Shown: positions 21,593 to 58,429 of the stretch, in pieces | How positions within the stretch are numbered: the first letter of the stretch is position 1 | Layout of the letters: every line of letters begins with the position of its first letter | NCBI GenBank assembly: GCA_006384855.1 | Contig: VCJN01001883.1 | Span: 62,001-126,000 of the forward strand | Length of the DNA: 64,000 bases | Source of the DNA: Tetraselmis striata | Lineage: Eukaryota > Chlorophyta > Chlorodendrophyceae > Chlorodendrales > Chlorodendraceae | Reading direction: 5' to 3' | The notes under the pieces: generated by a model | What the model was told of the DNA's origin: nothing | What the model saw: only the letters and a program-made list of their open reading frames with translations | Database searches by the model: none | Position numbers and translations under genes: made by a program

Positions 21593-21635
<43 letters not shown>

Positions 21636-28600: not shown

Positions 28601-28876
28601 TGTGAGGCTGCGCATCCGTGGGCCGTGAGCGCTATGCCAGCTAAGCGATGCCGCGCGGCACCTCTCGCCGCAGTTTATATCCGTGAAGTTGGCCCCGGTT
28701 GATGCTGCAAAGGGATATAGAGGGAGATGAGAGCACCAGTAGGGGTGATGGGGAAGGCGAAGGGGGGGGGACGGGGTGGGGTAAAGGGGGGGAGGAGTGG
28801 GGGGGGGGGGGGGGGGGGAGGCACCGCCGGTCACGACGGCAACGGTGTTGTCGTCCCACCACCGAGGGGTGTCCAT
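25625..28876 (-). CDS. carbonyl-reductase-type short-chain dehydrogenase (6 exons)
   Basis: This is an NAD(P)H-dependent classical SDR, probably a cytosolic reductase of carbonyl compounds. Exons (minus strand) are 28876-28825, 28359-28282, 28187-28029, 27815-27674, 26898-26744 and 25857-25625. The phases match (1,1,1,2,1), giving 272 aa, close to the roughly 277 aa of animal carbonyl reductases. It starts MDTPRWWDD. The cofactor motif TGANKGIG is at 16-23, NNAG at 94-97, the catalytic Ser143 in IVNMGSR, and YGVSK (Tyr195, Lys199). The segment before the Tyr (KDAQLRKAFED to HGWPNSMYG) is the extra helix found in the CBR1 subfamily, and CCPGWCQTDM with GADTPVWLALLP is its C-terminal signature. 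The catalytic loop has Gly-Ser in place of the usual Ser-Ser. C-runs on the sense strand follow the exon 4 donor and precede exon 4. The substrate is unknown. Confidence 0.85.
27641..27666. repeat. poly-G (sense poly-C) tract just inside an SDR intron
   Basis: This is a run of about 26 G on the plus strand, lying a few bases downstream of the exon 4 donor of the dehydrogenase. Further runs at about 27849-27860, 27880-27897 and 28799-28818 sit in other introns of the same gene. Confidence 0.85.
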
Positions 28877-29730
28877 CTCGCCGGAACGAGCTGTGAGCTG
28901 CCGCCAGGCGGCGCGCAGAGAGCCGGCGAGGGAGGTCGTCTGCGAGGGGCGGGGCTCACGAGCTTGGGAGCTGTCGCGACACGGCCGGAGCAGTCCGAGT
29001 CAGGTGGAAGTGGTGCGAGCGGGGGGGGACGGGCGCGACGACGGCGCTCTGCGAGTATGCGGCCCGCGTGCCATCCAGCCGGCCAGCAACGATGGGCGAT
29101 GTTGTCGGCAAGTAGGTGAGGGGAGGGAGGAGGGGGGGCTCCCTCGGCACCCACATGCTGCTCCCGCTGACGGCGGCCGCGCCGGGGAAGGGAACGCTGT
29201 GAGGGCGCGGTAGGCCCAACGGTCGAGCACGATTGACGTTGCGCCCAGCTGGCAGGAGCGCGCCAACGGCGCGCATGTGGCGAGCTTTCGCCGTTTAGCG
29301 GAGCAACCTCGCGGTGAGAGTGTGCTGAGACTGCCACTGCTGCGGGCGGCGCTACTTCCCCGTCGTCGCGGGGGTGCGGTGGGGTGCAACGTGAAAGCGA
29401 TGGGTTGTGATGACACGGGGTCGTAGAGGGCGGTGAGGGTAGTCGTAGGTATCAGTACTGGACTACTGGTAGTCTGTGCGTGCCGGGCGGGGCGAAAAAA
29501 GAACGGTGTGCGTCGCGGAGTTTATATGCCCAGTAGTAGCGCCTTGAATCAAACAACAGATAAGGGTTATGCCCGGAGCATGAGCATTTCATCTACTGAA
29601 CACCGGGAGGATAAGGTGGAAGCGGCCAGCTCCCCTGTATGCTGCGCTAGCGTGGCGAGTGCTTGCTCCGCGGGATTCATTTTTAGCCGCCGGAGCAGGG
29701 CTGGCAAAAACCCTAAAACAAAACCCGAAA
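28877..29730. other. 5' flank of the dehydrogenase; no firm gene
   Basis: This is GC-rich, with Arg/Pro-rich shadow frames only. A minus-strand frame of 65 codons (29764-29567) has a hydrophobic start but opens with TTG directly after a stop codon. Part of it is simply the translated telomere-like motif at about 29704-29728, so I do not call it. Confidence 0.35.
29704..29728. repeat. short interstitial telomere-like motif
   Basis: The sequence AAAAACCCTAAAACAAAACC carries one exact and one degenerate copy of CCCTAAAA, the complement of the Chlamydomonas-type telomere repeat TTTTAGGG. It stands next to the left edge of the 5S array. Two units are too few to exclude chance. Confidence 0.25.
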
Positions 29731-29750
29731 CAACTGGCAATAGTAAAACG

Positions 29751-30335
29751 CTTGCGGGATCCAATCAGACCCCGCCGGGAACTGAAGCTGACTTGAGCTG
29801 GATTGTGGCATTATTACATCATGCCTTTAACAAATGCACACTACAATCAAAACTAACAACAACTATGAAAGGTTGCGGCAAAAGCGAGACATAAGCATGA
29901 AACGAAGGTCGAGCAGGAGGTAGGCTAGGGAGCAAAGAACCAAGGAGGAGCCAAGGGAACCACGAAGTCGCCAAGCTGTTAGGAACCAAAGGGACCACCG
30001 CCCCATGGTAGGCTATCAGCCGCGGCGAGGACGCTTGCAACCAATGACCCGGGTCATAGCAACACATGCCGACGAGCGACGCGACGCAGGCGCAGGAGCA
30101 CCATCACGTACCGCGCGCGCGGCCGCGACCCCGCCAAGAACGTTGTCTGCATGTGCCATGTTGATGAGCATAGAGAAACGGCGGCGTCACACAGACAAAA
30201 GCTAGCCGATTTTTGGCCAGTGTGGGTGTCGCTAGCTGTCGCGAGCTCCACCAAGAAGGCCTCAGCGTGCTCTTTACTTGAGCTGGATTAGTACTGGATT
30301 CAGGAATGATCTGGGAATCCCCAGTGACGTAGTGT
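29751..30335 (+). pseudogene. 5S rRNA pseudogene at the array edge, split by an insertion
   Basis: Bases 29757-29804 match the middle of the intact 5S genes (ATCAGACCC, GGGAACTGAAGCTGACTTG). Bases 30290-30335 match the 3' end (AGTACTGGATTCAGG to GACGTAGTGT) and are followed by the T-run terminator. The first roughly 28 bases expected of the gene are not recognisable. The two halves are separated by 471 bp plus a repeated 14-bp target (see next entry). It marks the left limit of the tandem array and should not yield a functional 5S RNA. Confidence 0.7.
29805..30275. mobile_element. 471-bp insertion with a 14-bp target-site duplication
   Basis: The 14-mer ACTTGAGCTGGATT occurs at 29791-29804 and again at 30276-30289, bracketing the insert. 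Both copies carry an A where every intact 5S gene in the array has G, so the site was duplicated from this already mutated 5S copy. A 14-bp duplication is of the size made by LINE/SINE-type retroposition, but I see no poly-A tail or tRNA-like head. Many DNA transposons make shorter duplications. The insert has no coding potential, and its family is unknown. Confidence 0.6.
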
Positions 30336-33300
30336 TTTCCTTTTCCTACAAGCGTCTGGATATACGTCTTCATCCCACAGTCATTTCCTGCAGCACGCCG
30401 CCGTCGATGAGCAATATGTATAATTTTCCCGCCTTTCCATCCTTCCTTAACACTTGCTTCGCGTTCATGCGCGCCGGTCGTACCTCATACTACGCTTGCG
30501 TGCAATAATGAATTCTTGTTGCATCGCCACGCGCAGTCGTGCTGATTGGACGGGCCCGCGCCATATCTACACCGCGCGCGACGCACTACGACTGCTTGCG
30601 CGCTGGGTGACATGACATCGCCTTCATGCCGATCTCGCATGACGAGCGAGGGCGCCCGGCATCATACCGATAACCTACTCGTGACCGCGACAACCGCCGA
30701 GCGACTCCTCGTCCTACTACCTCGGTACCGCGCCTACCGCCGCCCGCCGGCGCGCGGCGCAGCCGTTGCCGGATACTTATACGACTACGCACGGACGAGC
30801 AGTTATATTCCCCACATTTCGATGCGCCGCCGCCCCCAATCGACGATTCCCGCCAATTGATGATAGTAGCGGCAGCGCCATGCTATCGCATATTCTCGGA
30901 TATGTTCTCGTCGGCGGGGACGAGGTAGATCGGCCGGGGCGTGATGCATGCATGCCATGCGCTGCACGGACGCGTCGCGAGCGTGCGGTAGGTTGCTGCG
31001 CCGTCGTCGCCATCGCCTCGCGCGCGCGCAAGCACGGATCATTTTGTGGTTAGGTGCACGTATACTCCGGCCCCGCGGTGCTTGTGTTATTCGTCATCGT
31101 CGTCGTCATCACCGTATCGTATCGGGCGTCCGCAAGTTTTTCGTTCATTTCATTTGCTTCAATTCGCTCAGTTGCGAGAGTTAGGTGCAAAGGGTAATAG
31201 TAAGAAACCATCTAGTAAGCCCAAAAGGAAAGCCCACGAATGGAATTGCTGCGCATTAGATTACTATTATTTTCATCATCATCATCATCATCAATATTAT
31301 TATTATCGATATGTTGAGTTGTTCGCCACAATTACTTAGACGATTACAAATATATGTGCTACGCCGACTAATGCATATATATTGCGCGGCGCGGAGCAGC
31401 AGCACTAAAGACGTGTCACAACTAATAACGCAGCACTACTACCGTCGTATATATATGGAATGACAGACGATGTAGCTTAATTGATGACGATCGGCGGTTT
31501 ACTACAGTATGCACGTAGCAAATCGACATGGAAAAATATATAATATAGATATAATAATGTTGGCAGAAATATACACCCCCCACAAAAGTCATTGCCCCCC
31601 CCCCCCCCCCGCCCCTAATCACACGACACGCATGAATCCACTGCCGCGCAAGTATTTGACAATACTATTGAAAATGCCATGCTACCAACCGTACGTACAC
31701 TCCATAGCCACTGGGTGCATCGTCTTCACTTGGGAAACGTCGGTCATTTTGGGCTTTTGGCGCGGAGAAGTGGGTGATAAAGTGGTACAACAGTTGCAAC
31801 AATGCCCCATTTTAGCATTGTTTGCGGGTTCGGAGCACATGCACCACGTTTTCTGGCAAGTGTAGGTGCAATTTCTTCCAAGTTCGCCGACATTATAGTG
31901 GTGTAATACGACGACTCCGTGTTTTTTTATTGAGTAAGAATGAGTATTTGCGCGAGAGGGCACATGACTATGAGCGCCGTTGGTGTTGGGACCAAATTGC
32001 CGCAATTGCAGTTTTGGGAGGTGTGCCAAGAGGCATATCTTCGCGAAACGGTTTCCGATTGAGGCGTACGAGGTCGCGGTGGAAAGCGCATGGCAACAGC
32101 GTTTTCATGGGACTTTGTACTGCCCGGACCTTCACGTAGTTCGGAATCGCCATCCACTTGCCAACGCTATTTAAGGGGTCTACGAGCCCAAAAACGTGTT
32201 CCCAAACTATGTAGCCCAGTGTTACGTCCCGGAATGGGCACCAAGGTGCAACGCATAGTGCCTCAGACTGGAACCCACTATGGTCTGAAGTAGGCTAAAA
32301 ACTATGCATTACAACGTTTCCCCAAATCTGCGCATTTTTGGCTCGCGCTGCGTGGAAATTTCTGGGCACAATGCCTATCTTTCCTCCCACATCTCCCGCG
32401 CTGCGCCGTGGCGGTACGTAGTGCATCGGGAGGACTTTGATATGGGCTAACTCCATGGTGAAGCTTGGGCCATATAGCGCGTCGCGTGCTATGCTACAAA
32501 TGGACTGCGACTTTATGCCCTTTTGTCGAGCATTGACAAAACTGTAGGGGTGGTGGCGCGTGCACGGCTGCGACGCCACGTCATCCCCAAAATGGGACGA
32601 CATTCCCACAATTTATTCGTTTACTATCACATTATCCGTGCGTAAAAGCGTGGGAGCATGCGCACCCCGCCCGCGTTGAAGATGAAACGCGTGCAATCGC
32701 AATACGCAATTTTCTGTTGAAAAGCGGCATTTTTCACCATGCATGAGCGGAAAAAGAGCAATGTAGAAAATGACGCATCAGCGCGACGTTTCGGAGGGTG
32801 CGCTGCAACCAAGATCATGGAAGCTAAGCTTCGGTACAAGGATATAAGACTATACGCGGTTTGGGCTATATGCTATAGTGCGCATGTAGCGATGCGCCCG
32901 CAGGCAGATTTGTGTAGGGCTAAGCTTTAGTGGGAGGGTGTATATACATGCGATGATAATGCATCGCCAACAAGAAGATTGCTGATGTCGTGAACTTACT
33001 GCGCGGCGCGCTGAACGAGTGCACGCGGCGGGGTGCGTAGGTGATTGGGTGGTGCCAATAGGCGTGGAGGGCGTCGATATCGGCGGTGGCTCGTCGGCGG
33101 GCGCACGCGCAACAATGTGCGCGCGGCGTGTCGGTGAAAAAGCCCGCCGATATGCGTGGCGGCGTGTTGGCATAATGGGCCTCCGCATGCATACCGCAAC
33201 TACTACTCAGCGGCCGCGGCGCATGTATATATGCCGCGGGGCACCGCCGACGGTCATGGTGCTAAATTCTTACCGCCGTCGCTGGCGTAGTAGGACGGCA

Positions 33301-33512
33301 CTTAGCAAGGCACTCGCATATGCTTGAGGGCGGCGGCGGCACGGAAGCGGCGGCGGCGGGGCAGGCAATAGCAGGCGCGCCCGGCGGCGGCAGGCGTAGT
33401 GCTGACGCATGTATCATGCATACCGGTACAGGGTGGTGGTATTCGTACGGACATGGTGGTGGCGGCGAAGGTGCTTTGGTGCGTGTTCGTTTTGGCTGCG
33501 TGATATGACATC

Positions 33513-33541
33513 TATATTCAGGAAATCCGGGAGAGCCCGGC
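33513..33541 (+). promoter_or_regulatory. TATA-like upstream element of the 5S genes (representative)
   Basis: TATATT sits 29-24 bases before the 5S start, with a C at -1. The element recurs in front of copies 3, 4, 6 and 7. Copy 5 has TATAAT instead. In land plants a TATA-like box near -28 and C at -1 are needed for Pol III 5S transcription in addition to the internal boxes; the parallel here is by position. Confidence 0.6.
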
Positions 33542-33661
33542 ATGCTACGTTCATACCAGTCAGAATACAGCCCGTCCCATCAGACCCGGGAACTTAAGCT
33601 GACTTGGGCTGGATTAGTACTGGATTCAGGAATGATCTGGGAATCCCCAGTGACGTAGTGT
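33542..33661 (+). rRNA. 5S rRNA: 5S ribosomal RNA, copy 2 (first intact)
   Basis: This is a 120-nt gene starting ATGCTACGTTCATACCAG and ending GACGTAGTGT. It has the green-algal 5S core: CCCATCAGACCC, a box A-like AACTTAAGCTGACTTGGG from position 51, and an IE/box C region around GATTAGTACTGGATTCAGG. The ends pair (ATGCTACG with GTAGTGT). A TATATT lies at -29 to -24 and C at -1, as in plant 5S promoters, and TTTT follows at 33661-33664 as Pol III terminator. 5S RNA is a component of the large ribosomal subunit. Confidence 0.93.
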
Positions 33662-33670
33662 TTTCCTTTT
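33661..33670 (+). terminator. Pol III T-run terminator of the 5S genes (representative)
   Basis: TTTTCCTTTT follows directly after the 5S 3' end, and the same double T-run occurs after every copy in the array. Confidence 0.75.
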
Positions 33671-36600
33671 CTCGTCCTACAAGCGTCTGGATATACGTCT
33701 TCATCCCACAGTCATTTCCTGCAGCACGCCGCCGTCGATGAGCAATATGTATACTTTTTGCCCGCCTTTCCATCCTTCCTTAACACTTGCTTCGCGTTCA
33801 TGCGCGCCGGTCGTACCTCATACTACGCTTGCGTGCAATAATGAATTCTTGCTGCATCGCCACGCGCAGTCGTGATTGGACGGGCCCGCGCCATATCTAC
33901 ACCGCGCGCGACGCACTACGACCGCTTGCGCGCTGGGTGACATGACACCGCCTTCATGCCGATCTCGCGTGACGAGCGAGGGCGCCCGGCATCATACCGA
34001 TAACCTACTCGTGACCGCGACAACCGCCGAGCGACTCCTCGTCCTACTACCTCGGTACCGCGCCTACCGCCGCCCGCCGGCGCGCGGCGTAGCCGTTGCC
34101 GGATACTTATACGACTACGCACGGACGAGCAGTTATATTCCCCACATTTCGATGCGCCGCCGCCCCCAATCGACGATTCCCGCCAATTGATGATAGTAGC
34201 GGCAGCGCCATGCTATCGCATATTCTCGGATATGTTCTCGTCGGCGGGGACGAGGTAGATCGGCCGGGGCGTGATGCATGCATGCCATGCGCTGCACGGA
34301 CGCGTCGCGAGCGTGCGGTAGGTTGCTGCGCCGTCGTCGCCCTCGCCTCGCCCACGCGCAAGCACGGATCATTTTGTGGTTAGGTGCACGTATACTCCGG
34401 CCCCGCGGTGCTTGTGTTACTCGTCATCGTCGTCGTCATCACCGTATCGTATCGGGCGTCCGCAAGTTTTTCGTTCATTTCATTTGCTTCAATTCGCTCA
34501 GTTGCGAGAGTTAGGTGCAAAGGGTAATAGTAAGAAACCATCTAGTAAGCCCAAAAGGAAAGCCCACGAATGGAATTGCTGCGCATTAGATTACTATTAT
34601 TTTCATCATCATCATCATCATCATCAATATTATTATTATCGATATGTTGAATTGTTCGCCACAATTACTTAGACGATTACAAAGATATGTGCTACGCCGA
34701 CTAATGCATATATATTGCGCGGCGCGGAGCAGCAGCACTAAAGACGTGTCACAACTAATAACGCAGCACTACTACCGTCGTATATATATGGAATGACAGA
34801 CGATGTAGCTTAATTGATGACGATCGGCGGTTTACTATAGTATGCACGTAGCAAAACGACATGGAAAAATATATAATATAGATATAATGTTGGCAGAAAT
34901 ATACACCCCCCACAAAAGTCTTTGCCCCCCCCCCCCCCCCGCCCCTAATCACACGACACGCACGAATCCACTGCCGCGCAAGTATTTGACAATACTATTG
35001 AAAATGCCATGCTACCAACCGTACGTACACTCCATAGCCACTGGGTGCATCGTCTTCACTTGGGAAACGTCGGTCATTTTGGGCTTTTGGCGCGGAGAAG
35101 TGGGTGATAAAGTGGTACAACAGTTGCAACAATGCCCCATTTTTAGCACTGTTTGCGGGTTCGGAGCACATGCACCACGTTTTCTGGCAAGTGTAGGTGC
35201 AATTTCTTCCAAGTTCGCCGACATTATAGTGGTGTAATACGACGACTCCGTGTTTTTTTATTGAGTAAGAATGAGTATTTGCGCGAGAGGGCACATGACT
35301 ATGAGCGTCGTTGGTGTTGGGACCAAATTGCCGCAATTGCAGTTTTGGGAGGTGTGCCAAGAGGCATATCTTCGCGAAACGGTTTCCGATTGAGGCGTAC
35401 GAGGTCGCGGTGGAAAGCGCATGGCAACAGCGTTTTCATGGGACTTTGTACTGCCCGGACCTTCACGTAGTTCGGAATCGCCATGCATCCACTTGCCAAC
35501 GTTATTTAAGGGGTCTACGAGCCCAAAAACGTGTTCCCAAACTATGGAGCCCAGTGTTACGTCCCGGAATGGGCACCAAGGTGCAACGCATAGTGCCTCA
35601 GACTGGAACCCACTATGGTCTGAAGTAGACTAAAAACTCTGCATTACAGCGTTTCCCCAAATCTGCGCATTTTTGGCTCGCGCTGCGTGGAAATTTCTGG
35701 GCACAATGCCTATCTTTCCTCCCACATCTCCCGCGCTGCGCCGTGGCGGTACGTAGTGCATCGGGAGGACTTTGATATGGGCTAACTCCATGGTGAAGCT
35801 TGGGCCATATAGCGCGTCGCGTGCTATGCTACAAATGGACTGCGACTTTATGCCCTTTTGTCGAGCATTGACAAAACTGTAGGGGTGGTGGCGCGTGCAC
35901 GGCTGCGACGCCACGTCATCCCCAAAATGGGACGACATTCCCACAATTTATTCGTTTACTATCACATTATCCGTGCGTAAAAGCGTGGGAGCATGCGCAC
36001 CCCGCCCGCGTCGAAGATGAAACGCGTGCAATCGCAATACGCAATTTTCTGTTGAAAAGCGGCATTTTTCACCATGCATGAGCGGAAAAAGAGCAATGTA
36101 GAAAATGACGCATCAGCGCGACGTTTCGGAGGGTGCGCTGCAACCAAGATCATGGAAGCTAAGCTTCGGTACAAGGATATAAGACTATACGCGGTTTGGG
36201 CTATATGCTATAGTGCGCATGTAGCGATGCGCCCGCAGGCAGATTTGTGTAGGGCTAAGCTTTAGTGGGAGGGTGTATATACATGCGATGATAATGCATC
36301 GCCAACAAGAAGATTGCTGATGTCGTGAACTTACTGCGCGGCGCGCTGAACGAGTGCACCCGGCGGGGTGCGTAGGTGATTGGGTGGTGCCAATAGGCGT
36401 GCATGGAGGGCGTCGATATCGGCGGTGGCTCGTCGGCGGGCGCACGCGCAACAATGTGCGCGCGGCGTGTCGGTGAAAAAGCCCGCCGATATGCGTGGCG
36501 GCGTGTTGGCATAATGGGCCTCCGCATGCATACCGCAACTACTACTCAGCGGCCGCGGCGCATGTATATATGCCGCGGGGCACCGCCGACGGTCATGGTG

Positions 36601-36880
36601 CTAAATTCTTACCGCCGTCGCTGGCGTAGTAGGACGGCACTTAGCAAGGCACTCGCATATGCTTGAGGGCGGCGGCGGCACGGAAGCGGCGGCGGCGGGG
36701 CAGGCAATAGCAGGCGCGCCCGGCGGCGGCAGGCGTAGTGCTGACGCATGTATCATGCATACCGGTACAGGGTGGTGGTATTCGTACGGACATGGTGGTG
36801 GCGGCGAAGGTGCTTTGGTGCGTGTTCGTTTTGGCTGCGTGATATGACATCTATATTCAGGAAATCCGGGAGAGCCCGGC

Positions 36881-37000
36881 ATGCTACGTTCATACCAGTC
36901 AGAATACAGCCCGTCCCATCAAACCCGGGAACTTAAGCTGACTTGGGCTGGATTAGTACTGGATTCAGGAATGATCTGGGAATCCCCAGTGACGTAGTGT
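36881..37000 (+). rRNA. 5S rRNA: 5S ribosomal RNA, copy 3
   Basis: This matches copy 2 except for G to A at gene position 42 (36922), which it shares with copy 4. The same TATATT-type upstream element and T-run terminator are present. Confidence 0.93.
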
Positions 37001-40000
37001 TTTCCTTTTCTCGTCCTACAAGCGTCTGGATATACGTCTTCATCCCACAGTCATTTCCTGCAGCACGCCGCCGTCGATGAGCAATATGTATACTTTTGCC
37101 GCCTTTCCATCCTTCCTTAACACTTGCTTCGCGTTCATGCGCGCCGGTCGTACCTCATACTACGCTTGCGTGCAATAATGAATTCTTGCTGCATCGCCAC
37201 GCGCAGTCGTGATTGGACGGGCCCGCGCCATATCTACACCGCGCGCGACGCACTACGACCGCTTGCGCGCTGGGTGACATGACACCGCCTTCATGCCGAT
37301 CTCGCGTGACGAGCGAGGGCGCCCGGCATCATACCGATAACCTACTCGTGACCGCGACAACCGCCGAGCGACTCCTCGTCCTACTACCTCGGTACCGCGC
37401 CTACCGCCGCCCGCCGGCGCGCGGCGCAGCCGTTGCCGGATACTTATACGACTACGCACGGACGAGCAGTTATATTCCCCACATTTCGATGCGCCGCCGC
37501 CCCCAATCGACGATTCCCGCCAATTGATGATAGTAGCGGCAGCGCCATGCTATCGCATATTCTCGGATATGTTCTCGTCGGCGGGGACGAGGTAGATCGG
37601 CCGGGGCGTGATGCATGCATGCCATGCGCTGCACGGACGCGTCGCGAGCGTGCGGTAGGTTGCTGCGCCGTCGTCGCCCTCGCCTCGCCCACGCGCAAGC
37701 ACGGATCATTTTGTGGTTAGGTGCACGTATACTCCGGCCCCGCGGTGCTTGTGTTACTCGTCATCGTCGTCGTCATCACCGTATCGTATCGGGCGTCCGC
37801 AAGTTTTTCGTTCATTTCATTTGCTTCAATTCGCTCAGTTGCGAGAGTTAGGTGCAAAGGGTAATAGTAAGAAACCATCTAGTAAGCCCAAAAGGAAAGC
37901 CCACGAATGGAATTGCTGCGCATTAGATTACTATTATTTTCATCATCATCATCATCATCATCAATATTATTATTATCGATATGTTGAATTGTTCGCCACA
38001 ATTACTTAGACGATTACAAAGATATGTGCTACGCCGACTAATGCATATATATTGCGCGGCGCGGAGCAGCAGCACTAAAGACGTGTCACAACTAATAACG
38101 CAGCACTACTACCGTCGTATATATATGGAATGACAGACGATGTAGCTTAATTGATGACGATCGGCGGTTTACTATAGTATGCACGTAGCAAAACGACATG
38201 GAAAAATATATAATATAGATATAATGTTGGCAGAAATATACACCCCCCACAAAAGTCTTTGCCCCCCCCCCCCCCCGCCCCTAATCACACGACACGCACG
38301 AATCCACTGCCGCGCAAGTATTTGACAATACTATTGAAAATGCCATGCTACCAACCGTACGTACACTCCATAGCCACTGGGTGCATCGTCTTCACTTGGG
38401 AAACGTCGGTCATTTTGGGCTTTTGGCGCGGAGAAGTGGGTGATAAAGTGGTACAACAGTTGCAACAATGCCCCATTTTTAGCACTGTTTGCGGGTTCGG
38501 AGCACATGCACCACGTTTTCTGGCAAGTGTAGGTGCAATTTCTTCCAAGTTCGCCGACATTATAGTGGTGTAATACGACGACTCCGTGTTTTTTTATTGA
38601 GTAAGAATGAGTATTTGCGCGAGAGGGCACATGACTATGAGCGTCGTTGGTGTTGGGACCAAATTGCCGCAATTGCAGTTTTGGGAGGTGTGCCAAGAGG
38701 CATATCTTCGCGAAACGGTTTCCGATTGAGGCGTACGAGGTCGCGGTGGAAAGCGCATGGCAACAGCGTTTTCATGGGACTTTGTACTGCCCGGACCTTC
38801 ACGTAGTTCGGAATCGCCATGCATCCACTTGCCAACGTTATTTAAGGGGTCTACGAGCCCAAAAACGTGTTCCCAAACTATGGAGCCCAGTGTTACGTCC
38901 CGGAATGGGCACCAAGGTGCAACGCATAGTGCCTCAGACTGGAACCCACTATGGTCTGAAGTAGACTAAAAACTCTGCATTACAGCGTTTCCCCAAATCT
39001 GCGCATTTTTGGCTCGCGCTGCGTGGAAATTTCTGGGCACAATGCCTATCTTTCCTCCCACATCTCCCGCGCTGCGCCGTGGCGGTACGTAGTGCATCGG
39101 GAGGACTTTGATATGGGCTAACTCCATGGTGAAGCTTGGGCCATATAGCGCGTCGCGTGCTATGCTACAAATGGACTGCGACTTTATGCCCTTTTGTCGA
39201 GCATTGACAAAACTGTAGGGGTGGTGGCGCGTGCACGGCTGCGACGCCACGTCATCCCCAAAATGGGACGACATTCCCACAATTTATTCGTTTACTATCA
39301 CATTATCCGTGCGTAAAAGCGTGGGAGCATGCGCACCCCGCCCGCGTCGAAGATGAAACGCGTGCAATCGCAATACGCAATTTTCTGTTGAAAAGCGGCA
39401 TTTTTCACCATGCATGAGCGGAAAAAGAGCAATGTAGAAAATGACGCATCAGCGCGACGTTTCGGAGGGTGCGCTGCAACCAAGATCATGGAAGCTAAGC
39501 TTCGGTACAAGGATATAAGACTATACGCGGTTTGGGCTATATGCTATAGTGCGCATGTAGCGATGCGCCCGCAGGCAGATTTGTGTAGGGCTAAGCTTTA
39601 GTGGGAGGGTGTATATACATGCGATGATAATGCATCGCCAACGAGAAGATTGCTGATGTCGTGAACTTACTGCGCGGCGCGCTGAACGAGTGCACCCGGC
39701 GGGGTGCGTAGGTGATTGGGTGGTGCCAATAGGCGTGCATGGAGGGCGTCGATATCGGCGGTGGCTCGTCGGCGGGCGCACGCGCAACAATGTGCGCGCG
39801 GCGTGTCGGTGAAAAAGCCCGCCGATATGCGTGGCGGCGTGTTGGCATAATGGGCCTCCGCATGCATACCGCAACTACTACTCAGCGGCCGCGGCGCATG
39901 TATATATGCCGCGGGGCACCGCCGACGGTCATGGTGCTAAATTCTTACCGCCGTCGCTGGCGTAGTAGGACGGCACTTAGCAAGGCACTCGCATATGCTT

Positions 40001-40216
40001 GAGGGCGGCGGCGGCACGGAAGCGGCGGCGGCGGGGCAGGCAATAGCAGGCGCGCCCGGCGGCGGCAGGCGTAGTGCTGACGCATGTATCATGCATACCG
40101 GTACAGGGTGGTGGTATTCGTACGGACATGGTGGTGGCGGCGAAGGTGCTTTGGTGCGTGTTCGTTTTGGCTGCGTGATATGACATCTATATTCAGGAAA
40201 TCCGGGAGAGCCCGGC

Positions 40217-40336
40217 ATGCTACGTTCATACCAGTCAGAATACAGCCCGTCCCATCAAACCCGGGAACTTAAGCTGACTTGGGCTGGATTAGTACTGGAT
40301 TCAGGAATGATCTGGGAATCCCCAGTGACGTAGTGT
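40217..40336 (+). rRNA. 5S rRNA: 5S ribosomal RNA, copy 4
   Basis: This is identical to copy 3, including A at position 42. The upstream TATATT element and the downstream T-run are unchanged. Confidence 0.93.
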
Positions 40337-41596
40337 TTTCCTTTTCTCGTCCTACAAGCGTCTGGATATACGTCTTCATCCCACAGTCATTTCCTGCAGC
40401 ACGCCGCCGTCGATGAGCAATATGTATACTTTTGCCGCCTTTCCATCCTTCCTTAACACTTGCTTCGCGTTCATGCGCGCCGGTCGTACCTCATACTACG
40501 CTTGCGTGCAATAATGAATTCTTGCTGCATCGCCACGCGCAGTCGTGATTGGACGGGCCCGCGCCATATCTACACCGCGCGCGACGCACTACGACCGCTT
40601 GCGCGCTGGGTGACATGACACCGCCTTCATGCCGATCTCGCGTGACGAGCGAGGGCGCCCGGCATCATACCGATAACCTACTCGTGACCGCGACAACCGC
40701 CGAGCGACTCCTCGTCCTACTACCTCGGTACCGCGCCTACCGCCGCCCGCCGGCGCGCGGCGCAGCCGTTGCCGGATACTTATACGACTACGCACGGACG
40801 AGCAGTTATATTCCCCACATTTCGATGCGCCGCCGCCCCCAATCGACGATTCCCGCCAATTGATGATAGTAGCGGCAGCGCCATGCTATCGCATATTCTC
40901 GGATATGTTCTCGTCGGCGGGGACGAGGTAGATCGGCCGGGGCGTGATGCATGCATGCCATGCGCTGCACGGACGCGTCGCGAGCGTGCGGTAGGTTGCT
41001 GCGCCGTCGTCGCCCTCGCCTCGCCCACGCGCAAGCACGGATCATTTTGTGGTTAGGTGCACGTATACTCCGGCCCCGCGGTGCTTGTGTTACTCGTCAT
41101 CGTCGTCGTCATCACCGTATCGTATCGGGCGTCCGCAAGTTTTTCGTTCATTTCATTTGCTTCAATTCGCTCAGTTGCGAGAGTTAGGTGCAAAGGGTAA
41201 TAGTAAGAAACCATCTAGTAAGCCCAAAAGGAAAGCCCACGAATGGAATTGCTGCGCATTAGATTACTATTATTTTCATCATCATCATCATCATCATCAA
41301 TATTATTATTATCGATATGTTGAATTGTTCGCCACAATTACTTAGACGATTACAAAGATATGTGCTACGCCGACTAATGCATATATATTGCGCGGCGCGG
41401 AGCAGCAGCACTAAAGACGTGTCACAACTAATAACGCAGCACTACTACCGTCGTATATATATGGAATGACAGACGATGTAGCTTAATTGATGACGATCGG
41501 CGGTTTACTATAGTATGCACGTAGCAAAACGACATGGAAAAATATATAATATAGATATAATGTTGGCAGAAATATACACCCCCCACAAAAGTCTTT

Positions 41597-41616
41597 GCCC
41601 CCCCCCCCCCCCCCCG
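41597..41616. repeat. spacer poly-C tract (unit 4; one per unit)
   Basis: A C homopolymer of about 15-21 bases occurs in each spacer (near 31595, 34925, 38263, 41598, 44931 and 48275), and its length varies from unit to unit. The switch between the two unit subtypes in unit 4 falls in the roughly 110-bp interval that holds this tract. Confidence 0.85.
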
Positions 41617-43546
41617 CCCCTAATCACACGACACGCATGAATCCACTGCCGCGCAAGTATTTGACAATACTATTGAAAATGCCATGCTACCAACCGTACG
41701 TACACTCCATAGCCACTGGGTGCATCGTCTTCACTTGGGAAACGTCGGTCATTTTGGGCTTTTGGCGCGGAGAAGTGGGTGATAAAGTGGTACAACAGTT
41801 GCAACAATGCCCCATTTTAGCACTGTTTGCGGGTTCGGAGCACATGCACCACGTTTTCTGGCAAGTGTAGGTGCAATTTCTTCCAAGTTCGCCGACATTA
41901 TAGTGGTGTAATACGACGACTCCGTGTTTTTTTATTGAGTAAGAATGAGTATTTGCGCGAGAGGGCACATGACTATGAGCGCCGTTGGTGTTGGGACCAA
42001 ATTGCCGCAATTGCAGTTTTGGGAGGTGTGCCAAGAGGCATATCTTCGCGAAACGGTTTCCGATTGAGGCGTACGAGGTCGCGGTGGAAAGCGCATGGCA
42101 ACAGCGTTTTCATGGGACTTTGTACTGCCCGGACCTTCACGTAGTTCGGAATCGCCATCCACTTGCCAACGTTATTTAAGGGGTCTACGAGCCCAAAAAC
42201 GTGTTCCCAAACTATGGAGCCCAGTGTTACGTCCCGGAATGGGCACCAAGGTGCAACGCATAGTGCCTCAGACTGGAACCCACTATGGTCTGAAGTAGAC
42301 TAAAAACTCTGCATTACAGCGTTTCCCCAAATCTGCGCATTTTTGGCTCGCGCTGCGTGGAAATTTCTGGGCACAATGCCTATCTTTCCTCCCACATCTC
42401 CCGCGCTGCGCCGTGGCGGTACGTAGTGCATCGGGAGGACTTTGATATGGGCTAACTCCATGGTGAAGCTTGGGCCATATAGCGCGTCGCGTGCTATGCT
42501 ACAAATGGACTGCGACTTTATGCCCTTTTGTCGAGCATTGACAAAACTGTAGGGGTGGTGGCGCGTGCACGGCTGCGACGCCACGTCATCCCCAAAATGG
42601 GACGACATTCCCACAATTTATTCGTTTACTATCACATTATCCGTGCGTAAAAGCGTGGGAGCATGCGCACCCCGCCCGCGTTGAAGATGAAACGCGTGCA
42701 ATCGCAATACGCAATTTTCTGTTGAAAAGCGGCATTTTTCACCATGCATGAGCGGAAAAAGAGCACTGTAGAAAATGACGCATCAGCGCGACGTTTCGGA
42801 GGGTGCGCTGCAACCAAGATCATGGAAGCTAAGCTTCGGTACAAGGATATAAGACTATACGCGGTTTGGGCTATATGCTATAGTGCGCATGTAGCGATGC
42901 GCCCGCAGGCAGATTTGTGTAGGGCTAAGCTTTAGTGGGAGGGTGTATATACATGCGATGATAATGCATCGCCAACAAGAAGATTGCTGATGTCGTGAAC
43001 TTACTGCGCGGCGCGCTGAACGAGTGCACGCGGCGGGGTGCGTAGGTGATTGGGTGGTGCCAATAGGCGTGGAGGGCGTCGATATCGGCGGTGGCTCGTC
43101 GGCGGGCGCACGCGCAACAATGTGCGCGCGGCGTGTCGGTGAAAAAGCCCACCGATATGCGTGGCGGCGTGTTGGCATAATGGGCCTCCGCATGCATACC
43201 GCAACTACTACTCAGCGGCCGCGGCGCATGTATATATGCCGCGGGGCACCGCCGACGGTCATGGTGCTAAATTCTTACCGCCGTCGCTGGCGTAGTAGGA
43301 CGGCACTTAGCAAGGCACTCGCATATGCTTGAGGGCGGCGGCGGCACGGAAGCGGCGGCGGCGGGGCAGGCAATAGCAGGCGCGCCCGGCGGCGGCAGGC
43401 GTAGTGCTGACGCATGTATCATGCATACCGGTACAGGGTGGTGGTATTCGTACGGACATGGTGGTGGCGGCGAAGGTGCTTTGGTGCGTGTTCGTTTTGG
43501 CTGCGTGATATGACATCTATAATTGGGAAATCCGGGAAGATCTGGC

Positions 43547-43666
43547 ATGCTACGTTCATACCAGTCAGAATACAGCCCGTCCCATCAGACCCGGGAACTT
43601 AAGCTGGCTTGGGCTGGATTAGTACTGGATTCAGGAATGATCTGGGAATCCCCAGTGACGTAGTGT
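43547..43666 (+). rRNA. 5S rRNA: 5S ribosomal RNA, copy 5 (variant promoter)
   Basis: The gene has A to G at position 61 (43607), within the box A region. Its immediate upstream sequence differs from all other copies: CTATAATTGGG in place of CTATATTCAGG, and AAGATCTGGC in place of GAGCCCGGC just before the start. C at -1 and the TTTT terminator are kept. It may be transcribed at a different level; that is inference. Confidence 0.9.
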
Positions 43667-46600
43667 TTTCCTTTTCTCGTCCTACAAGCGTCTGGATATA
43701 CGTCTTCATCCCACAGTCATTTCCTGCAGCACGCCGCCGTCGATGAGCAATATGTATAATTTTCCCGCCTTTCCATCCTTCCTTAACACTTGCTTCGCGT
43801 TCATGCGCGCCGGTCGTACCTCATACTACGCTTGCGTGCAATAATGAATTCTTGTTGCATCGCCACGCGCAGTCGTGCTGATTGGACGGGCCCGCGCCAT
43901 ATCTACACCGCGCGCGACGCACTACGACTGCTTGCGCGCTGGGTGACATGACATCGCCTTCATGCCGATCTCGCATGACGAGCGAGGGCGCCCGGCATCA
44001 TACCGATAACCTACTCGTGACCGCGACAACCGCCGAGCGACTCCTCGTCCTACTACCTCGGTACCGCGCCTACCGCCGCCCGTCGGCGCGCGGCGCAGCC
44101 GTTGCCGGATACTTATACGACTACGCACGGACGAGCAGTTATATTCCCCACATTTCGATGCGCCGCCGCCCCCAATCGACGATTCCCGCCAATTGATGAT
44201 AGTAGCGGCAGCGCCATGCTATCGCATATTCTCGGATATGTTCTCGTCGGCGGGGACGAGGTAGATCGGCCGGGGCGTGATGCATGCATGCCATGCGCTG
44301 CACGGACGCGTCGCGAGCGTGCGGTAGGTTGCTGCGCCGTCGTCGCCATCGCCTCGCGCGCGCGCAAGCACGGATCATTTTGTGGTTAGGTGCACGTATA
44401 CTCCGGCCCCGCGGCGCTTGTGTTATTCGTCATCGTCGTCGTCATCACCGTATCGTATCGGGCGTCCGCAAGTTTTTCGTTCATTTCATTTGCTTCAATT
44501 CGCTCAGTTGCGAGAGTTAGGTGCAAAGGGTAATAGTAAGAAACCATCTAGTAAGCCCAAAAGGAAAGCCCACGAATGGAATTGCTGCGCATTAGATTAC
44601 TATTATTTTCATCATCATCATCATCATCATCAATATTATTATTATCGATATGTTGAGTTGTTCGCCACAATTACTTAGACGATTACAAATATATGTGCTA
44701 CGCCGACTAATGCATATATATTGCGCGGCGCGGAGCAGCAGCACTAAAGACGTGTCACAACTAATAACACAGCACTACTACCGTCGTATATATATGGAAT
44801 GACAGACGATGTAGCTTAATTGATGACGATCGGCGGTTTACTATAGTATGCACGTAGCAAATCGACATGGAAAAATATATAATATAGATATAATGTTGGC
44901 AGAAATATACACCCCCCACAAAAGTCTTTGCCCCCCCCCCCCCCCCCCCCGCCCCTAATCACACGACACGCATGAATCCACTGCCGCGCAAGTATTTGAC
45001 AATACTATTGAAAATGCCATGCTACCAACCGTACGTACACTCCATAGCCACTGGGTGCATCGTCTTCACTTGGGAAACGTCGGTCATTTTGGGCTTTTGG
45101 CGCGGAGAAGTGGGTGATAAAGTGGTACAACAGTTGCAACAATGCCCCATTTTTAGCACTGTTTGCGGGTTCGGAGCACATGCACCACGTTTTCTGGCAA
45201 GTGTAGGTGCAATTTCTTCCAAGTTCGCCGACATTATAGTGGTGTAATACGACGACTCCGTGTTTTTTTATTGAGTAAGAATGAGTATTTGCGCGAGAGG
45301 GCACATGACTATGAGCGTCGTTGGTGTTGGGACCAAATTGCCGCAATTGCAGTTTTGGGAGGTGTGCCAAGAGGCATATCTTCGCGAAACGGTTTCCGAT
45401 TGAGGCGTACGAGGTCGCGGTGGAAAGCGCATGGCAACAGCGTTTTCATGGGACTTTGTACTGCCCGGACCTTCACGTAGTTCGGAATCGCCATGCATCC
45501 ACTTGCCAACGTTATTTAAGGGGTCTACGAGCCCAAAAACGTGTTCCCAAACTATGGAGCCCAGTGTTACGTCCCGGAATGGGCACCAAGGTGCAACGCA
45601 TAGTGCCTCAGACTGGAACCCACTATGGTCTGAAGTAGACTAAAAACTCTGCATTACAGCGTTTCCCCAAATCTGCGCATTTTTGGCTCGCGCTGCGTGG
45701 AAATTTCTGGGCACAATGCCTATCTTTCCTCCCACATCTCCCGCGCTGCGCCGTGGCGGTACGTAGTGCATCGGGAGGACTTTGATATGGGCTAACTCCA
45801 TGGTGAAGCTTGGGCCATATAGCGCGTCGCGTGCTATGCTACAAATGGACTGCGACTTTATGCCCTTTTGTCGAGCATTGACAAAACTGTAGGGGTGGTG
45901 GCGCGTGCACGGCTGCGACGCCACGTCATCCCCAAAATGGGACGACATTCCCACAATTTATTCGTTTACTATCACATTATCCGTGCGTAAAAGCGTGGGA
46001 GCATGCGCACCCCGCCCGCGTCGAAGATGAAACGCGTGCAATCGCAATACGCAATTTTCTGTTGAAAAGCGGCATTTTTCACCATGCATGAGCGGAAAAA
46101 GAGCAATGTAGAAAATGACGCATCAGCGCGACGTTTCGGAGGGTGCGCTGCAACCAAGATCATGGAAGCTAAGCTTCGGTACAAGGATATAAGACTATAC
46201 GCGGTTTGGGCTATATGCTATAGTGCGCATGTAGCGATGCGCCCGCAGGCAGATTTGTGTAGGGCTAAGCTTTAGTGGGAGGGTGTATATACATGCGATG
46301 ATAATGCATCGCCAACAAGAAGATTGCTGATGTCGTGAACTTACTGCGCGGCGCGCTGAACGAGTGCACCCGGCGGGGTGCGTAGGTGATTGGGTGGTGC
46401 CAATAGGCGTGCATGGAGGGCGTCGATATCGGCGGTGGCTCGTCGGCGGGCGCACGCGCAACAATGTGCGCGCGGCGTGTCGGTGAAAAAGCCCGCCGAT
46501 ATGCGTGGCGGCGTGTTGGCATAATGGGCCTCCGCATGCATACCGCAACTACTACTCAGCGGCCGCGGCGCATGTATATATGCCGCGGGGCACCGCCGAC

Positions 46601-46890
46601 GGTCATGGTGCTAAATTCTTACCGCCGTCGCTGGCGTAGTAGGACGGCACTTAGCAAGGCACTCGCATATGCTTGAGGGCGGCGGCGGCACGGAAGCGGC
46701 GGCGGCGGGGCAGGCAATAGCAGGCGCGCCCGGCGGCGGCAGGCGTAGTGCTGACGCATGTATCATGCATACCGGTACAGGGTGGTGGTATTCGTACGGA
46801 CATGGTGGTGGCGGCGAAGGTGCTTTGGTGCGTGTTCGTTTTGGCTGCGTGATATGACATCTATATTCAGGAAATCCGGGAGAGCCCGGC

Positions 46891-47010
46891 ATGCTACGTT
46901 CATACCAGTCAGAATACAGCCCGTCCCATCAGACCCGGGAACTTAAGCTGACTTGGGCTGGATTAGTGCTGGATTCAGGAATGATCTGGGAATCCCCAGT
47001 GACGTAGTGT
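46891..47010 (+). rRNA. 5S rRNA: 5S ribosomal RNA, copy 6
   Basis: This is a standard copy with A to G at position 77 (46967), between the expected IE and box C elements. It has the normal upstream TATATT element and T-run terminator. Confidence 0.92.
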
Positions 47011-50000
47011 TTTCCTTTTCTCGTCCTACAAGCGTCTGGATATACGTCTTCATCCCACAGTCATTTCCTGCAGCACGCCGCCGTCGATGAGCAATATGTA
47101 TACTTTTGCCGCCTTTCCATCCTTCCTTAACACTTGCTTCGCGTTCATGCGCGCCGGTCGTACCTCATACTACGCTTGCGTGCAATAATGAATTCTTGCT
47201 GCATCGCCACGCGCAGTCGTGATTGGACGGGCCCGCGCCATATCTACACCGCGCGCGACGCACTACGACCGCTTGCGCGCTGGGTGACATGACACCGCCT
47301 TCATGCCGATCTCGCGTGACGAGCGAGGGCGCCCGGCATCATACCGATAACCTACTCGTGACCGCGACAACCGCCGAGCGACTCCTCGTCCTACTACCTC
47401 GGTACCGCGCCTACCGCCGCCCGCCGGCGCGCGGCGGAGCCGTTGCCGGATACTTATACGACTACGCACGGACGAGCAGTTATATTCCCCACATTTCGAT
47501 GCGCCGCCGCCCCCAATCGACGATTCCCGCCAATTGATGATAGTAGCGGCAGCGCCATGCTATCGCATATTCTCGGATATGTTCTCGTCGGCGGGGACGA
47601 GGTAGATCGGCCGGGGCGTGATGCATGCATGCCATGCGCTGCACGGACGCGTCGCGAGCGTGCGGTAGGTTGCTGCGCCGTCGTCGCCCTCACCTCGCCC
47701 ACGCGCAAGCACGGATCATTTTGTGGTTAGGTGCACGTATACTCCGGCCCCGCGGTGCTTGTGTTACTCGTCATCGTCGTCGTCATCACCGTATCGTATC
47801 GGGCGTCCGCAAGTTTTTCGTTCATTTCATTTGCTTCAATTCGCTCAGTTGCGAGAGTTAGGTGCAAAGGGTAATAGTAAGAAACCATCTAGTAAGCCCA
47901 AAAGGAAAGCCCACGAATGGAATTGCTGCGCATTAGATTACTATTATTTTCATCATCATCATCATCATCATCATCAATATTATTATTATCGATATGTTGA
48001 ATTGTTCGCCACAATTACTTAGACGATTACAAAGATATGTGCTACGCCGACTAATGCATATATATTGCGCGGCGCGGAGCAGCAGCACTAAAGACGTGTC
48101 ACAACTAATAACGCAGCACTACTACCGTCGTATATATATGGAATGACAGACGATGTAGCTTAATTGATGACGATCGGCGGTTTACTATAGTATGCACGTA
48201 GCAAAACGACATGGAAAAATATATAATATAGATATAATGTTGGCAGAAATATACACCCCCCACAAAAGTCTTTGCCCCCCCCCCCCCCCCCCGCCCCTAA
48301 TCACACGACACGCACGAATCCACTGCCGCGCAAGTATTTGACAATACTATTGAAAATGCCATGCTACCAACCGTACGTACACTCCATAGCCACTGGGTGC
48401 ATCGTCTTCACTTGGGAAACGTCGGTCATTTTGGGCTTTTGGCGCGGAGAAGTGGGTGATAAAGTGGTACAACAGTTGCAACAATGCCCCATTTTTAGCA
48501 CTGTTTGCGGGTTCGGAGCACATGCACCACGTTTTCTGGCAAGTGTAGGTGCAATTTCTTCCAAGTTCGCCGACATTATAGTGGTGTAATACGACGACTC
48601 CGTGTTTTTTATTGAGTAAGAATGAGTATTTGCGCGAGAGGGCACATGACTATGAGCGTCGTTGGTGTTGGGACCAAATTGCCGCAATTGCAGTTTTGGG
48701 AGGTGTGCCAAGAGGCATATCTTCGCGAAACGGTTTCCGATTGAGGCGTACGAGGTCGCGGTGGAAAGCGCATGGCAACAGCGTTTTCATGGGACTTTGT
48801 ACTGCCCGGACCTTCACGTAGTTCGGAATCGCCATGCATCCACTTGCCAACGTTATTTAAGGGGTCTACGAGCCCAAAAACGTGTTCCCAAACTATGGAG
48901 CCCAGTGTTACGTCCCGGAATGGGCACCAAGGTGCAACGCATAGTGCCTCAGACTGGAACCCACTATGGTCTGAAGTAGACTAAAAACTCTGCATTACAG
49001 CGTTTCCCCAAATCTGCGCATTTTTGGCTCGCGCTGCGTGGAAATTTCTGGGCACAATGCCTATCTTTCCTCCCACATCTCCCGCGCTGCGCCGTGGCGG
49101 TACGTAGTGCATCGGGAGGACTTTGATATGGGCTAACTCCATGGTGAAGCTTGGGCCATATAGCGCGTCGCGTGCTATGCTACAAATGGACTGCGACTTT
49201 ATGCCCTTTTGTCGAGCATTGACAAAACTGTAGGGGTGGTGGCGCGTGCACGGCTGCGACGCCACGTCATCCCCAAAATGGGACGACATTCCCACAATTT
49301 ATTCGTTTACTATCACATTATCCGTGCGTAAAAGCGTGGGAGCATGCGCACCCCGCCCGTGTCGAAGATGAAACGCGTGCAATCGCAATACGCAATTTTC
49401 TGTTGAAAAGCGGCATTTTTCACCATGCATGAGCGGAAAAAGAGCAATGTAGAAAATGACGCATCAGCGCGACGTTTCGGAGGGTGCGCTGCAACCAAGA
49501 TCATGGAAGCTAAGCTTCGGTACAAGGATATAAGACTATACGCGGTTTGGGCTATATGCTATAGTGCGCATGTAGCGATGCGCCCGCAGGCAGATTTGTG
49601 TAGGGCTAAGCTTTAGTGGGAGGGTGTATATACATGCGATGATAATGCATCGCCAACAAGAAGATTGCTGATGTCGTGAACTTACTGCGCGGCGCGCTGA
49701 ACGAGTGCACCCGGCGGGGTGCGTAGGTGATTGGGTGGTGCCAATAGGCGTGCATGGAGGGCGTCGATATCGGCGGTGGCTCGTCGGCGGGCGCACGCGC
49801 AACAATGTGCGCGCGGCGTGTCGGTGAAAAAGCCCGCCGATATGCGTGGCGGCGTGTTGGCATAATGGGCCTCCGCATGCATACCGCAACTACTACTCAG
49901 CGGCCGCGGCGCATGTATATATGCCGCGGGGCACCGCCGACGGTCATGGTGCTAAATTCTTACCGCCGTCGCTGGCGTAGTAGGACGGCACTTAGCAAGG

Positions 50001-50231
50001 CACTCGCATATGCTTGAGGGCGGCGGCGGCACGGAAGCGGCGGCGGCGGGGCAGGCAATAGCAGGCGCGCCCGGCGGCGGCAGGCGTAGTGCTGACGCAT
50101 GTATCATGCATACCGGTACAGGGTGGTGGTATTCGTACGGACATGGTGGTGGCGGCGAAGGTGCTTTGGTGCGTGTTCGTTTTGGCTGCGTGATATGACA
50201 TCTATATTCAGGAAATCCGGGAGAGCCCGGC

Positions 50232-50351
50232 ATGCTACGTTCATACCAGTCAGAATACAGCCCGTCCCATCAGACCCGGGAACTTAAGCTGACTTGGGCT
50301 GGATTAGTACTGGATTCAGGAATGATCTGGGAATCCCCAGTGACGTAGTGT
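50232..50351 (+). rRNA. 5S rRNA: 5S ribosomal RNA, copy 7 (last)
   Basis: The sequence is the same as copy 2, with the standard upstream element and terminator. Only about 520 bp of spacer follow it before the array breaks off at about 50873. Confidence 0.93.
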
Positions 50352-50873
50352 TTTCCTTTTCTCGTCCTACAAGCGTCTGGATATACGTCTTCATCCCACA
50401 GTCATTTCCTGCAGCACGCCGCCGTCGATGAGCAATATGTATACTTTTGCCGCCTTTCCATCCTTCCTTAACACTTGCTTCGCGTTCATGCGCGCCGGTC
50501 GTACCTCATACTACGCTTGCGTGCAATAATGAATTCTTGCTGCATCGCCACGCGCAGTCGTGATTGGACGGGCCCGCGCCATATCTACACCGCGCGCGAC
50601 GCACTACGACCGCTTGCGCGCTGGGTGACATGACACCGCCTTCATGCCGATCTCGCGTGACGAGCGAGGGCGCCCGGCATCATACCGATAACCTACTCGT
50701 GACCGCGACAACCGCCGAGCGACTCCTCGTCCTACTACCTCGGTACCGCGCCTACCGCCGCCCGCCGGCGCGCGGCGCAGCCGTTGCCGGATACTTATAC
50801 GACTACGCACGGACGAGCAGTTATATTCCCCACATTTCGATGCGCCGCCGCCCCCAATCGACGATTCCCGCCA

Positions 50874-51900
50874 ATGATGCATGGCAGTCTCTGTCATTGG
50901 ATGTAATAAGTGCTCCATTGATTGCAGGTTTGCAATGCATCCTCAACTGTCGCAAGCGCAATGCGGCGCTGCCTACATCCCGCTGCCACCGGACTATAAA
51001 GTCCAACCTAGGAAGCGAGGGGGGCAGTCGAGGAAGCGACGGAGGTAGCGAATCAAAGGCGCACGGCGTGGTGAAGGTGCGGCGCTGGCTGGCCACATAG
51101 ATCACCCAGCGCGCATCATGCTTGGCATTTGCATGTTCTCATGTGTCATTGCCACCGCATCCTTCTTCCCCTGAACCGCCACCTTGGGATAAACCTTTGT
51201 GCTTATGGCTGTCCACATGATGCGATGTGTCCTGAAAAACGACACATAGATGGCGAGAACGTACTCATCGCTGACACCCGCAAGCGTATGCTCAACAGGT
51301 TTGTGCGGTGCAGCTACCGCTGCTGCCGCTGAAACTGAAAGTGCCCGGTCGGTGCGATCAGAGCTAGGGTACTTTACAGCTCACTGGCGGCCATAGACAG
51401 TTGTAAATTTGGTCTAGAGATCACGCCGCTGCCGCCTAACCCATGGCTGGTATGACGGGGGGGGGGGGGGGGGGGGGGGGGCTTGCCATGCTCATCCCTC
51501 ATGGCATCCATGGGCTTGCATATTCGAGCCGCGCGGCCCACAGTGAGCATGACCGTAGGCTGTCCAGGGCGCACGCCTTGCCGACCATCTCCAACCTCTG
51601 CTGATACATCAGCCGCTGCGCCGCCGGCGCCGCCGGCGCCAGCAAGACGCGCACCGCCACCGGCGCCCGCATCTACACTTCTATAGCCAGAGATACGACA
51701 GCATTCGCACTGGCCTCGCCAATGGGAGTTGCATCGATCCTCGCGCCGAGGCCGTCCGATAGTCCTGCAGATTGCCGGCCGTTAGGACGCCTAGGGCGTC
51801 TGCCGACCGGTCTCTCCATCTGGCGGGCCTCGGCCTCCTCCTCTGCGTCCCCGGAAACTGATGCCGCGACTAGCCTAGCGAAGGCCAGGAGGCTTGACTT
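50874..51900. other. right flank of the 5S array; no firm gene
   Basis: The array ends inside a spacer at ...CCCGCCAAT, followed by unrelated sequence. A spacer frame that is closed in all other units stays open across this junction to 51100, but it shows no domain. A poly-G run lies at about 51458-51481. A short Pro/Ala-rich frame (51483-51686) has no recognisable family. Confidence 0.4.
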
Positions 51901-51913
51901 TGTTCTCACGCAA

Positions 51914-52129
51914 ATGCTCGTTTGGCTTGGTGCTCTTTCCCGGCTTCTTCCTCGGCATCCGCCAGCTCCGTCGTAGCAATCCCGAACCGCTCCGCCAGCC
52001 GATTGTATTTGCGTTGCTTGGTGCGATATAAAGATTCCGCCACTTGCTGTCATCCGCCTCAACGGTGAGCACGAGCTCCCCGTAATGCGCATGTAACTCC
52101 TTGAGCTTGTTGAGCCGCGCCGCGGTCAT
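51914..52129 (-). CDS. possible charged helical protein fragment, unassigned
   Basis: On the minus strand an ATG at 52129 opens MTAARLNKLKELHAHYGE, and another frame lower down reads RTKQRKYNRLAERFG and DAEEEAGKEHQAK before a TGA near 51914. Both pieces are protein-like and coiled-coil-like, but they lie in different frames and I found no convincing splice pair joining them. It may be a multi-exon gene, or a relic of a mobile-element structural protein. I assign no function. Confidence 0.25.
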
Positions 52130-52153
52130 GCTCTTTTGTTGCGCGAGCGCGGC

Positions 52154-52654
52154 ATGTGGCGATGCGACACTGCCTTTAGCTTTATCACCTCCCGGTTGTC
52201 CTACTGCGGCCCGATGTCGTCGTTATCGCCCTCTTCACAAGTCACCGCGTCTGGCTCTTCGATAGCATCGGCCTCCCCCTCTTCTGTCGCCCCTTCCGTT
52301 CCTTCGGGTGGTTCGGCTCCTGCCTCTGCTGCCGCGTGGGCGTCAGTCGCGGAGCTGTCGAGCGGCTGCTCCGCTTCGCCCGCGCCGGCTCGTCTTGTCT
52401 TCCGCCCACCCACCTTCCGTTTCTCCCGCTCATCTTACACTGCCGATGGCGTGGATAGTCTCGCGGTCTTGGGAATGCTGCACAGCGGTCGTCTCGTCGT
52501 CGAGACCCACCCGACCGCGAGCGTTGTTGGATGGATGGAAGTGGCATTCATGCTAACATTCGCGCGGGAGAACTTTCGTGACGCCGAGTATCTACTGCCA
52601 GTAGGAAGACCGCGTATCACCGGGGCGTTGATCGTTGAGTGCTGCACATGGTAG
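52154..52654 (+). CDS. hypothetical Ser/Ala-rich protein, doubtful
   Basis: This is an open frame of 167 codons from an ATG at 52154. The first two thirds are Ser/Ala/Pro-rich. The last 60 residues (LAVLGMLHSGRLVVETH, VVGWMEVAFMLTFARENF, YLLPVGRPRITGALIVE) look like a folded domain. The opposite strand over 52201-52413 also reads as an acidic protein (EGTEGATEEGEADAIEEPD), and at most one of the two is likely to be real. No family is recognised. Confidence 0.25.
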   Translation: MWRCDTAFSFITSRLSYCGPMSSLSPSSQVTASGSSIASASPSSVAPSVPSGGSAPASAAAWASVAELSSGCSASPAPARLVFRPPTFRFSRSSYTADGVDSLAVLGMLHSGRLVVETHPTASVVGWMEVAFMLTFARENFRDAEYLLPVGRPRITGALIVECCTW

Positions 52655-52877
52655 TCGCATGACCGCGGTCTACGCCGTCAACGTGTATACTACTGCGTAA
52701 AGTACTGAGAATTTATTATCATATGGTTCGTACATTTACAGTCCCCCTCGTAAGTCTTGACATGTACGTATCTGTCCATATCGCCACGTCAGCACCGGCG
52801 GCGCCGACCGCCTAGTGGTTCATTGGCGCATTTTTATGATATAATTAACTTAGAATATTCACCAACGGCTTGAGATG

Positions 52878-58360: not shown

Positions 58361-58429
58361 ATAAGGGTGCGGAGGTTGTTTTACACGGAAAAGCGCCATT
58401 TTATGGCTAGGAAGGTTCAGCGAAAGGGG

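Follow-up and report, generated by a model that had tools for sequence, protein, structure and literature searches.

The repeated region in this stretch of Tetraselmis striata DNA is best read as a small, complete-looking and ordinary nuclear 5S array (rough probability 0.9), in which each unit would consist of a Pol III 5S gene and a long non-coding spacer kept uniform by homogenization. The observed basis for this reading is the presence of six intact genes, their even spacing, the near identity of the units and the shuffling of variants among them. Throughout, ‘the window’ refers to the whole 64-kb stretch of DNA that was analysed.

The 5S genes

Scanned with Rfam at gathering thresholds, the whole window gave six matches, each to RF00001, all on the + strand and all full length (119 nt), with scores of 84.6–90.7 bits against a threshold of 38 and with model positions 1–120 of 120 covered. 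The original prediction had claimed six intact 5S genes and had staked itself beforehand on RF00001 matches at six positions; all six are present at gathering level, each one base after the predicted start. The genes begin at 33543, 36882, 40218, 43548, 46892 and 50233:

33543–33661, + strand: 5S rRNA gene 1 (RF00001, 90.7 bits)
36882–37000, + strand: 5S rRNA gene 2, G41A (RF00001, 84.6 bits)
40218–40336, + strand: 5S rRNA gene 3, G41A (RF00001, 84.6 bits)
43548–43666, + strand: 5S rRNA gene 4, A60G (RF00001, 89.3 bits)
46892–47010, + strand: 5S rRNA gene 5, A77G (RF00001, 86.2 bits)
50233–50351, + strand: 5S rRNA gene 6, identical in sequence to gene 1 (RF00001, 90.7 bits)

Variation among the six intact copies is confined to 3 of 119 positions (41, 60 and 77). 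When the four distinct gene sequences were folded individually, the z-scores were −1.65 to −2.33 and the canonical 5S arms were reproduced incompletely, whereas alignment to the RF00001 covariance model does reproduce them; 5S identity is thus better evidenced by the covariance model than by folding of single sequences.

Five of the six copies have the hexamer TATATT at −30 to −25 and the remaining one has TATAAT; at the 3′ end, all six genes have a run of four Ts (TTTT). Plant 5S genes carry a TATA-like element near −28, with which the −30 to −25 element of this array agrees. Transcription by RNA polymerase III is predicted, the TATA-like element and the T run being its only visible signs; it would proceed from the internal control region, helped by the element at −30 to −25, and would stop at the T run at the 3′ end of the gene.

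Unit spacing and array limits

Successive genes are spaced by 3339, 3336, 3330, 3344 and 3341 bp, head to tail and all on the + strand. Regular units with five spacings of 3330–3344 bp characterize a tandem 5S rDNA array of the S-type, and the array is likewise separate from 18S-5.8S-25S genes, with no other rRNA family reaching a gathering score in the Rfam scan of the 64-kb window. The predicted head-to-tail arrangement of ~3.33-kb units is therefore upheld by both the RF00001 matches and the spacings. No tRNA genes were found in the window by an ARAGORN scan.

Both ends of the array lie inside the window. Recognizable array sequence extends from 29760, where the first 5S fragment begins, to ~50876, the last clearly shared bases; by blastn self-comparison the repeat spans 30276 to 50879. 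The limits originally proposed (29751–50873) were close. In the flanks (29501–30275 and 50880–51800) blastn detected no further homology to the unit except for the 5S fragment and homopolymer-type matches. As assembled, the locus has six intact 5S genes, a broken copy at its left edge and a truncated spacer at its right edge. Edges of arrays of this kind commonly carry split pseudogenes or truncated spacers. The spacers referred to below are:

30336–33542, + strand: spacer of the first unit (U0)
33662–36881, + strand: spacer of unit 1 (U1), 3220 bp, no recognized gene (Rfam, Pfam, open-frame test)
50352–50876, + strand: last spacer, truncated, forming the right array edge; homology to the other units stops here

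Uniformity and probable homogenization of the units

Pairwise alignments of the five complete units (U1–U5) revealed 4–31 substitutions over 3327–3338 aligned bases (~99.1–99.9 % identity) and 3–14 gap columns. Across U1–U5, the set used for this count to the exclusion of U0 and the partial last unit, the gene has 3 variable substitution columns out of 119 and the spacer 34 out of 3207 (Fisher p 0.14); any difference would be towards greater variability of the gene. Across U0–U5 there are 42 substitution columns in the 3212 alignment columns past the first 140. The longest invariant run among these units is 371 columns, a length equalled in 23 % of random placements (p 0.23).

The variants are also distributed in a mosaic. 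The 17 informative columns free of gaps form 136 pairs, of which 40 fail the four-gamete test by showing every one of the four combinations, and U0 shares columns 212–1320 with U4 and sites 1779, 2483 and 2831 with U3. Such a mosaic is readily interpreted as the trace of gene conversion and unequal exchange. Identity of 99.1–99.9 % combined with 40 of 136 four-gamete failures is the pattern of concerted evolution, in which unequal exchange and gene conversion would homogenize the array and the spacer would stay uniform. The spacer thus is not specially conserved; its uniformity reads as a signature of homogenization and not of selection on the spacer. No spacer function is needed for the near-invariance, because concerted evolution already accounts for it. 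The original prediction had presented the near-invariance of the spacer with a hint of surprise. The near-invariance itself stands, while the surprise does not, given that the density of variable sites is not below that of the gene and that the variants are shuffled. The array is a clear example of near identity in a long spacer arising from homogenization alone, and it warns against reading function into the likeness of units in one array.

One unit departs locally from this pattern:

43522–43543, + strand: variant tract upstream of gene 4, in which 8 of 22 bases (−26 to −5) are substituted

These eight terminal substitutions of U3 fall within alignment columns 3327–3348, which are uniform in U0, U1, U2, U4 and U5. 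In comparison with U1, U2, U4 and U5, 13 columns are private to U3, and gene 4 (43548) carries a private change at position 60 as well. Because the patch is so dense within an otherwise 99 % identical unit, it suggests that conversion took place, with a diverged 5S copy elsewhere as the putative donor.

Search for a second gene in the spacer

Searches of the spacer used unit 1, and for Rfam also U0; the remaining units are 99 % alike. No Rfam family besides 5S scored above its gathering threshold in 29700–37100 (both strands, E up to 5). Three sub-threshold matches, to two bacterial sRNA models, had E values of 0.52–3.9 and scores of 20.8–22.2 bits against gathering scores of 40–50; the partial 5S at the left edge scored 22.8 bits (E 0.35) in the same scan. 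No Pfam domain was above cut-off in any of the six frames of unit 1 with stops masked as X, the lone match having an E value of 0.21. No stop-free frame of the spacer exceeds 146 codons; 200 simulations with a first-order Markov model average 158, and 113 of them reach at least 146. In the unit searched, Rfam and Pfam therefore bear out the claim that the spacer carries no recognizable second RNA or protein gene. Internal repeats of the unit are limited to short or weak direct and inverted ones, and thus there is no sign of a spacer grown from a satellite or of an intact transposon with long terminal repeats. Relatives of the unit were absent from a plasmid collection, and 5S-derived patterns gave no matches in collections of genome contigs and viral contigs; eukaryotic nuclear genomes are few or absent in all of these, and the negative results therefore carry little weight.

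The length and uniformity of the spacer could also be due to a non-coding RNA specific to the lineage, or to some other functional element within it, by analogy with SL1 RNA, which lies in the 5S unit of Caenorhabditis. A spacer of 3220 bp has room for a gene, each C. elegans 5S unit is described as carrying SL1 (PMC8961926), and the nonamer TCCCACATC, which is similar to an element of plant snRNA genes, occurs once in every spacer. However, the full 11-base plant snRNA upstream element is absent, and no TATA box was seen at the expected distance past TCCCACATC on reading the sequence. Nor is there a long block depleted in variable sites (p 0.23), an Rfam family other than 5S that exceeds its gathering score in 29700–37100 (both strands) or an above-cut-off Pfam match in unit 1. 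A functional spacer is accordingly very unlikely, and the preferred reading is that of an ordinary 5S array in which the spacer would have no purposeful transcription.

The split gene at the left edge

The broken copy at the left edge is arranged as follows:

29760–29804, + strand: 5S pseudogene fragment (5S positions 33–73), degenerate (blastn 84 % over 45 aligned positions, E 3e-7)
29791–29804, + strand: 14-bp direct repeat, copy 1, putative target-site duplication
29805–30275, − strand: 471-bp insert between the two copies of the 14-bp repeat, interrupting the edge 5S gene; class tentative
30276–30335, + strand: 3′ half of the split 5S gene (positions 60–119; blastn 98.3 % over 60 bases)
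30276–30289, + strand: 14-bp direct repeat, copy 2, the start of the 3′ half

This copy appears to be a split pseudogene, broken by a small inserted element. The 14-mer of the edge repeat is present in the window at 29791 and 30276 alone. Five of the six intact genes have a G in place of the A of the edge repeat at one position of this stretch, and the gene at 43548 has the same G plus another change at the first base. A private change in both copies around the insert is what would be expected from insertion into an edge gene that had already diverged.

The minus strand of the insert terminates in TGTAATAATGCCA, and TGTAA is the usual polyadenylation signal in chlamydomonad algae; on these grounds one may guess at a 5′-truncated retroposon in minus orientation. 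Pfam scans of both strands of 20300–30275 found neither a reverse transcriptase nor any other domain in the insert (29805–30275), and the only matches in that interval are short-chain dehydrogenase exons outside it. The insert thus shows no recognizable reverse transcriptase frame as expected of a 5S-targeting non-LTR retrotransposon, a frame that a truncated copy would lack anyway. Dada DNA transposons are described as producing 6–7 bp target-site duplications (PMC3706591), and with its 14-bp duplication the insert is disfavoured as a member of that group.

As far as they are described in PMC11202950 and PMC3706591, the 5S-targeting non-LTR retrotransposons Mutsu of zebrafish and a Jockey-like element of Tribolium freemani 5S arrays are likewise inserted in a 5S gene or array. 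In contrast, the present insert consists of one 471-bp piece with no recognizable reverse transcriptase, and the likeness noted is one of insertion site. A joint proposal, that the insert may be the 5′-truncated tail of a green-algal non-LTR retrotransposon with a preference for 5S, a counterpart of Mutsu, and that the gene at 43548 may independently record exchange with a second, diverged 5S class elsewhere, is a long shot.

An assembly artefact, in which one unit was duplicated or unrelated units were joined, is a very improbable explanation of the locus, since although tandem repeats are prone to such errors, the units differ in length, carry private variants and share common variants in mosaic blocks, unique sequence lies beyond both edges, and a split edge copy is the expectation for a real locus.

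Genomic neighbourhood

The DNA around the array is nuclear, rich in introns and from a eukaryote of high G+C content; features of the 5S sequence, together with the G+C content and the exon structure, would fit a green alga. Flanking sequence was scanned with Pfam over 20300–30275 and 50800–60790 on both strands and over 10301–20300 on the + strand only. The short-chain dehydrogenase exons are located on the minus strand at ~28021–28185 and 25742–25867. Exons of a lecithin:cholesterol acyltransferase-like protein (LCAT-like, possibly PDAT) are on the + strand at ~12978–13181 and 14345–14752. No Pfam matches were found on either strand of 50800–60790.

Further to the left, the minus strand carries an open frame of 1120 aa (P0001, 4676–8038) that is rich in tryptophans at regular spacing, a pattern reminiscent of SFI1-type repeats; no relatives were found in the PDB at E≤0.01. 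Two other repeats are present in the window: a 272-bp direct repeat whose copies are 100 % identical (9738–10009 and 10884–11155), and a 61-bp unit in two tandem copies with 96 % matches (61805–61926). The sequence CCCTAAAA, which is the telomere unit of chlamydomonads, has a single occurrence at 29711, just left of the array. Its position there is probably due to chance, because the reverse form occurs elsewhere (16105 and 63019).

Comparison with known 5S arrays

Plant 5S units are typically a few hundred bases in length, and the 3.33-kb unit is longer. The literature searched, with partial coverage, yielded no printed 5S unit length for any green alga. With respect to that literature, a well-resolved array with both edges in one sequence adds to a scant printed record on algal 5S loci, and the array may be of practical use for annotation and as a chromosome marker. 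The unit was originally called unusually long; long it is, though not outside the known kind of 5S array, and ‘unusual’ reflects general knowledge. Human units are given as 2.2 kb (PMC3225859).

The human array is described as likewise consisting of tandem 5S genes with long spacers, in 35–175 copies per haploid genome (PMC3225859). In comparison, six intact copies are assembled here and the unit is longer (3.33 versus 2.2 kb). Caenorhabditis 5S-SL1 units, by the account in PMC8961926, are likewise tandem and have few variants in the gene; a second RNA gene is found there, whereas none is recognized here. Likened by description, a further close case is that of the 5S genes of Chlamydomonas reinhardtii, which are reported in two main arrays on the arms of chromosomes 1 and 8, the larger being composed of highly identical units (PMC10030371); the present locus shares with them a green-algal tandem 5S organization of highly identical units.
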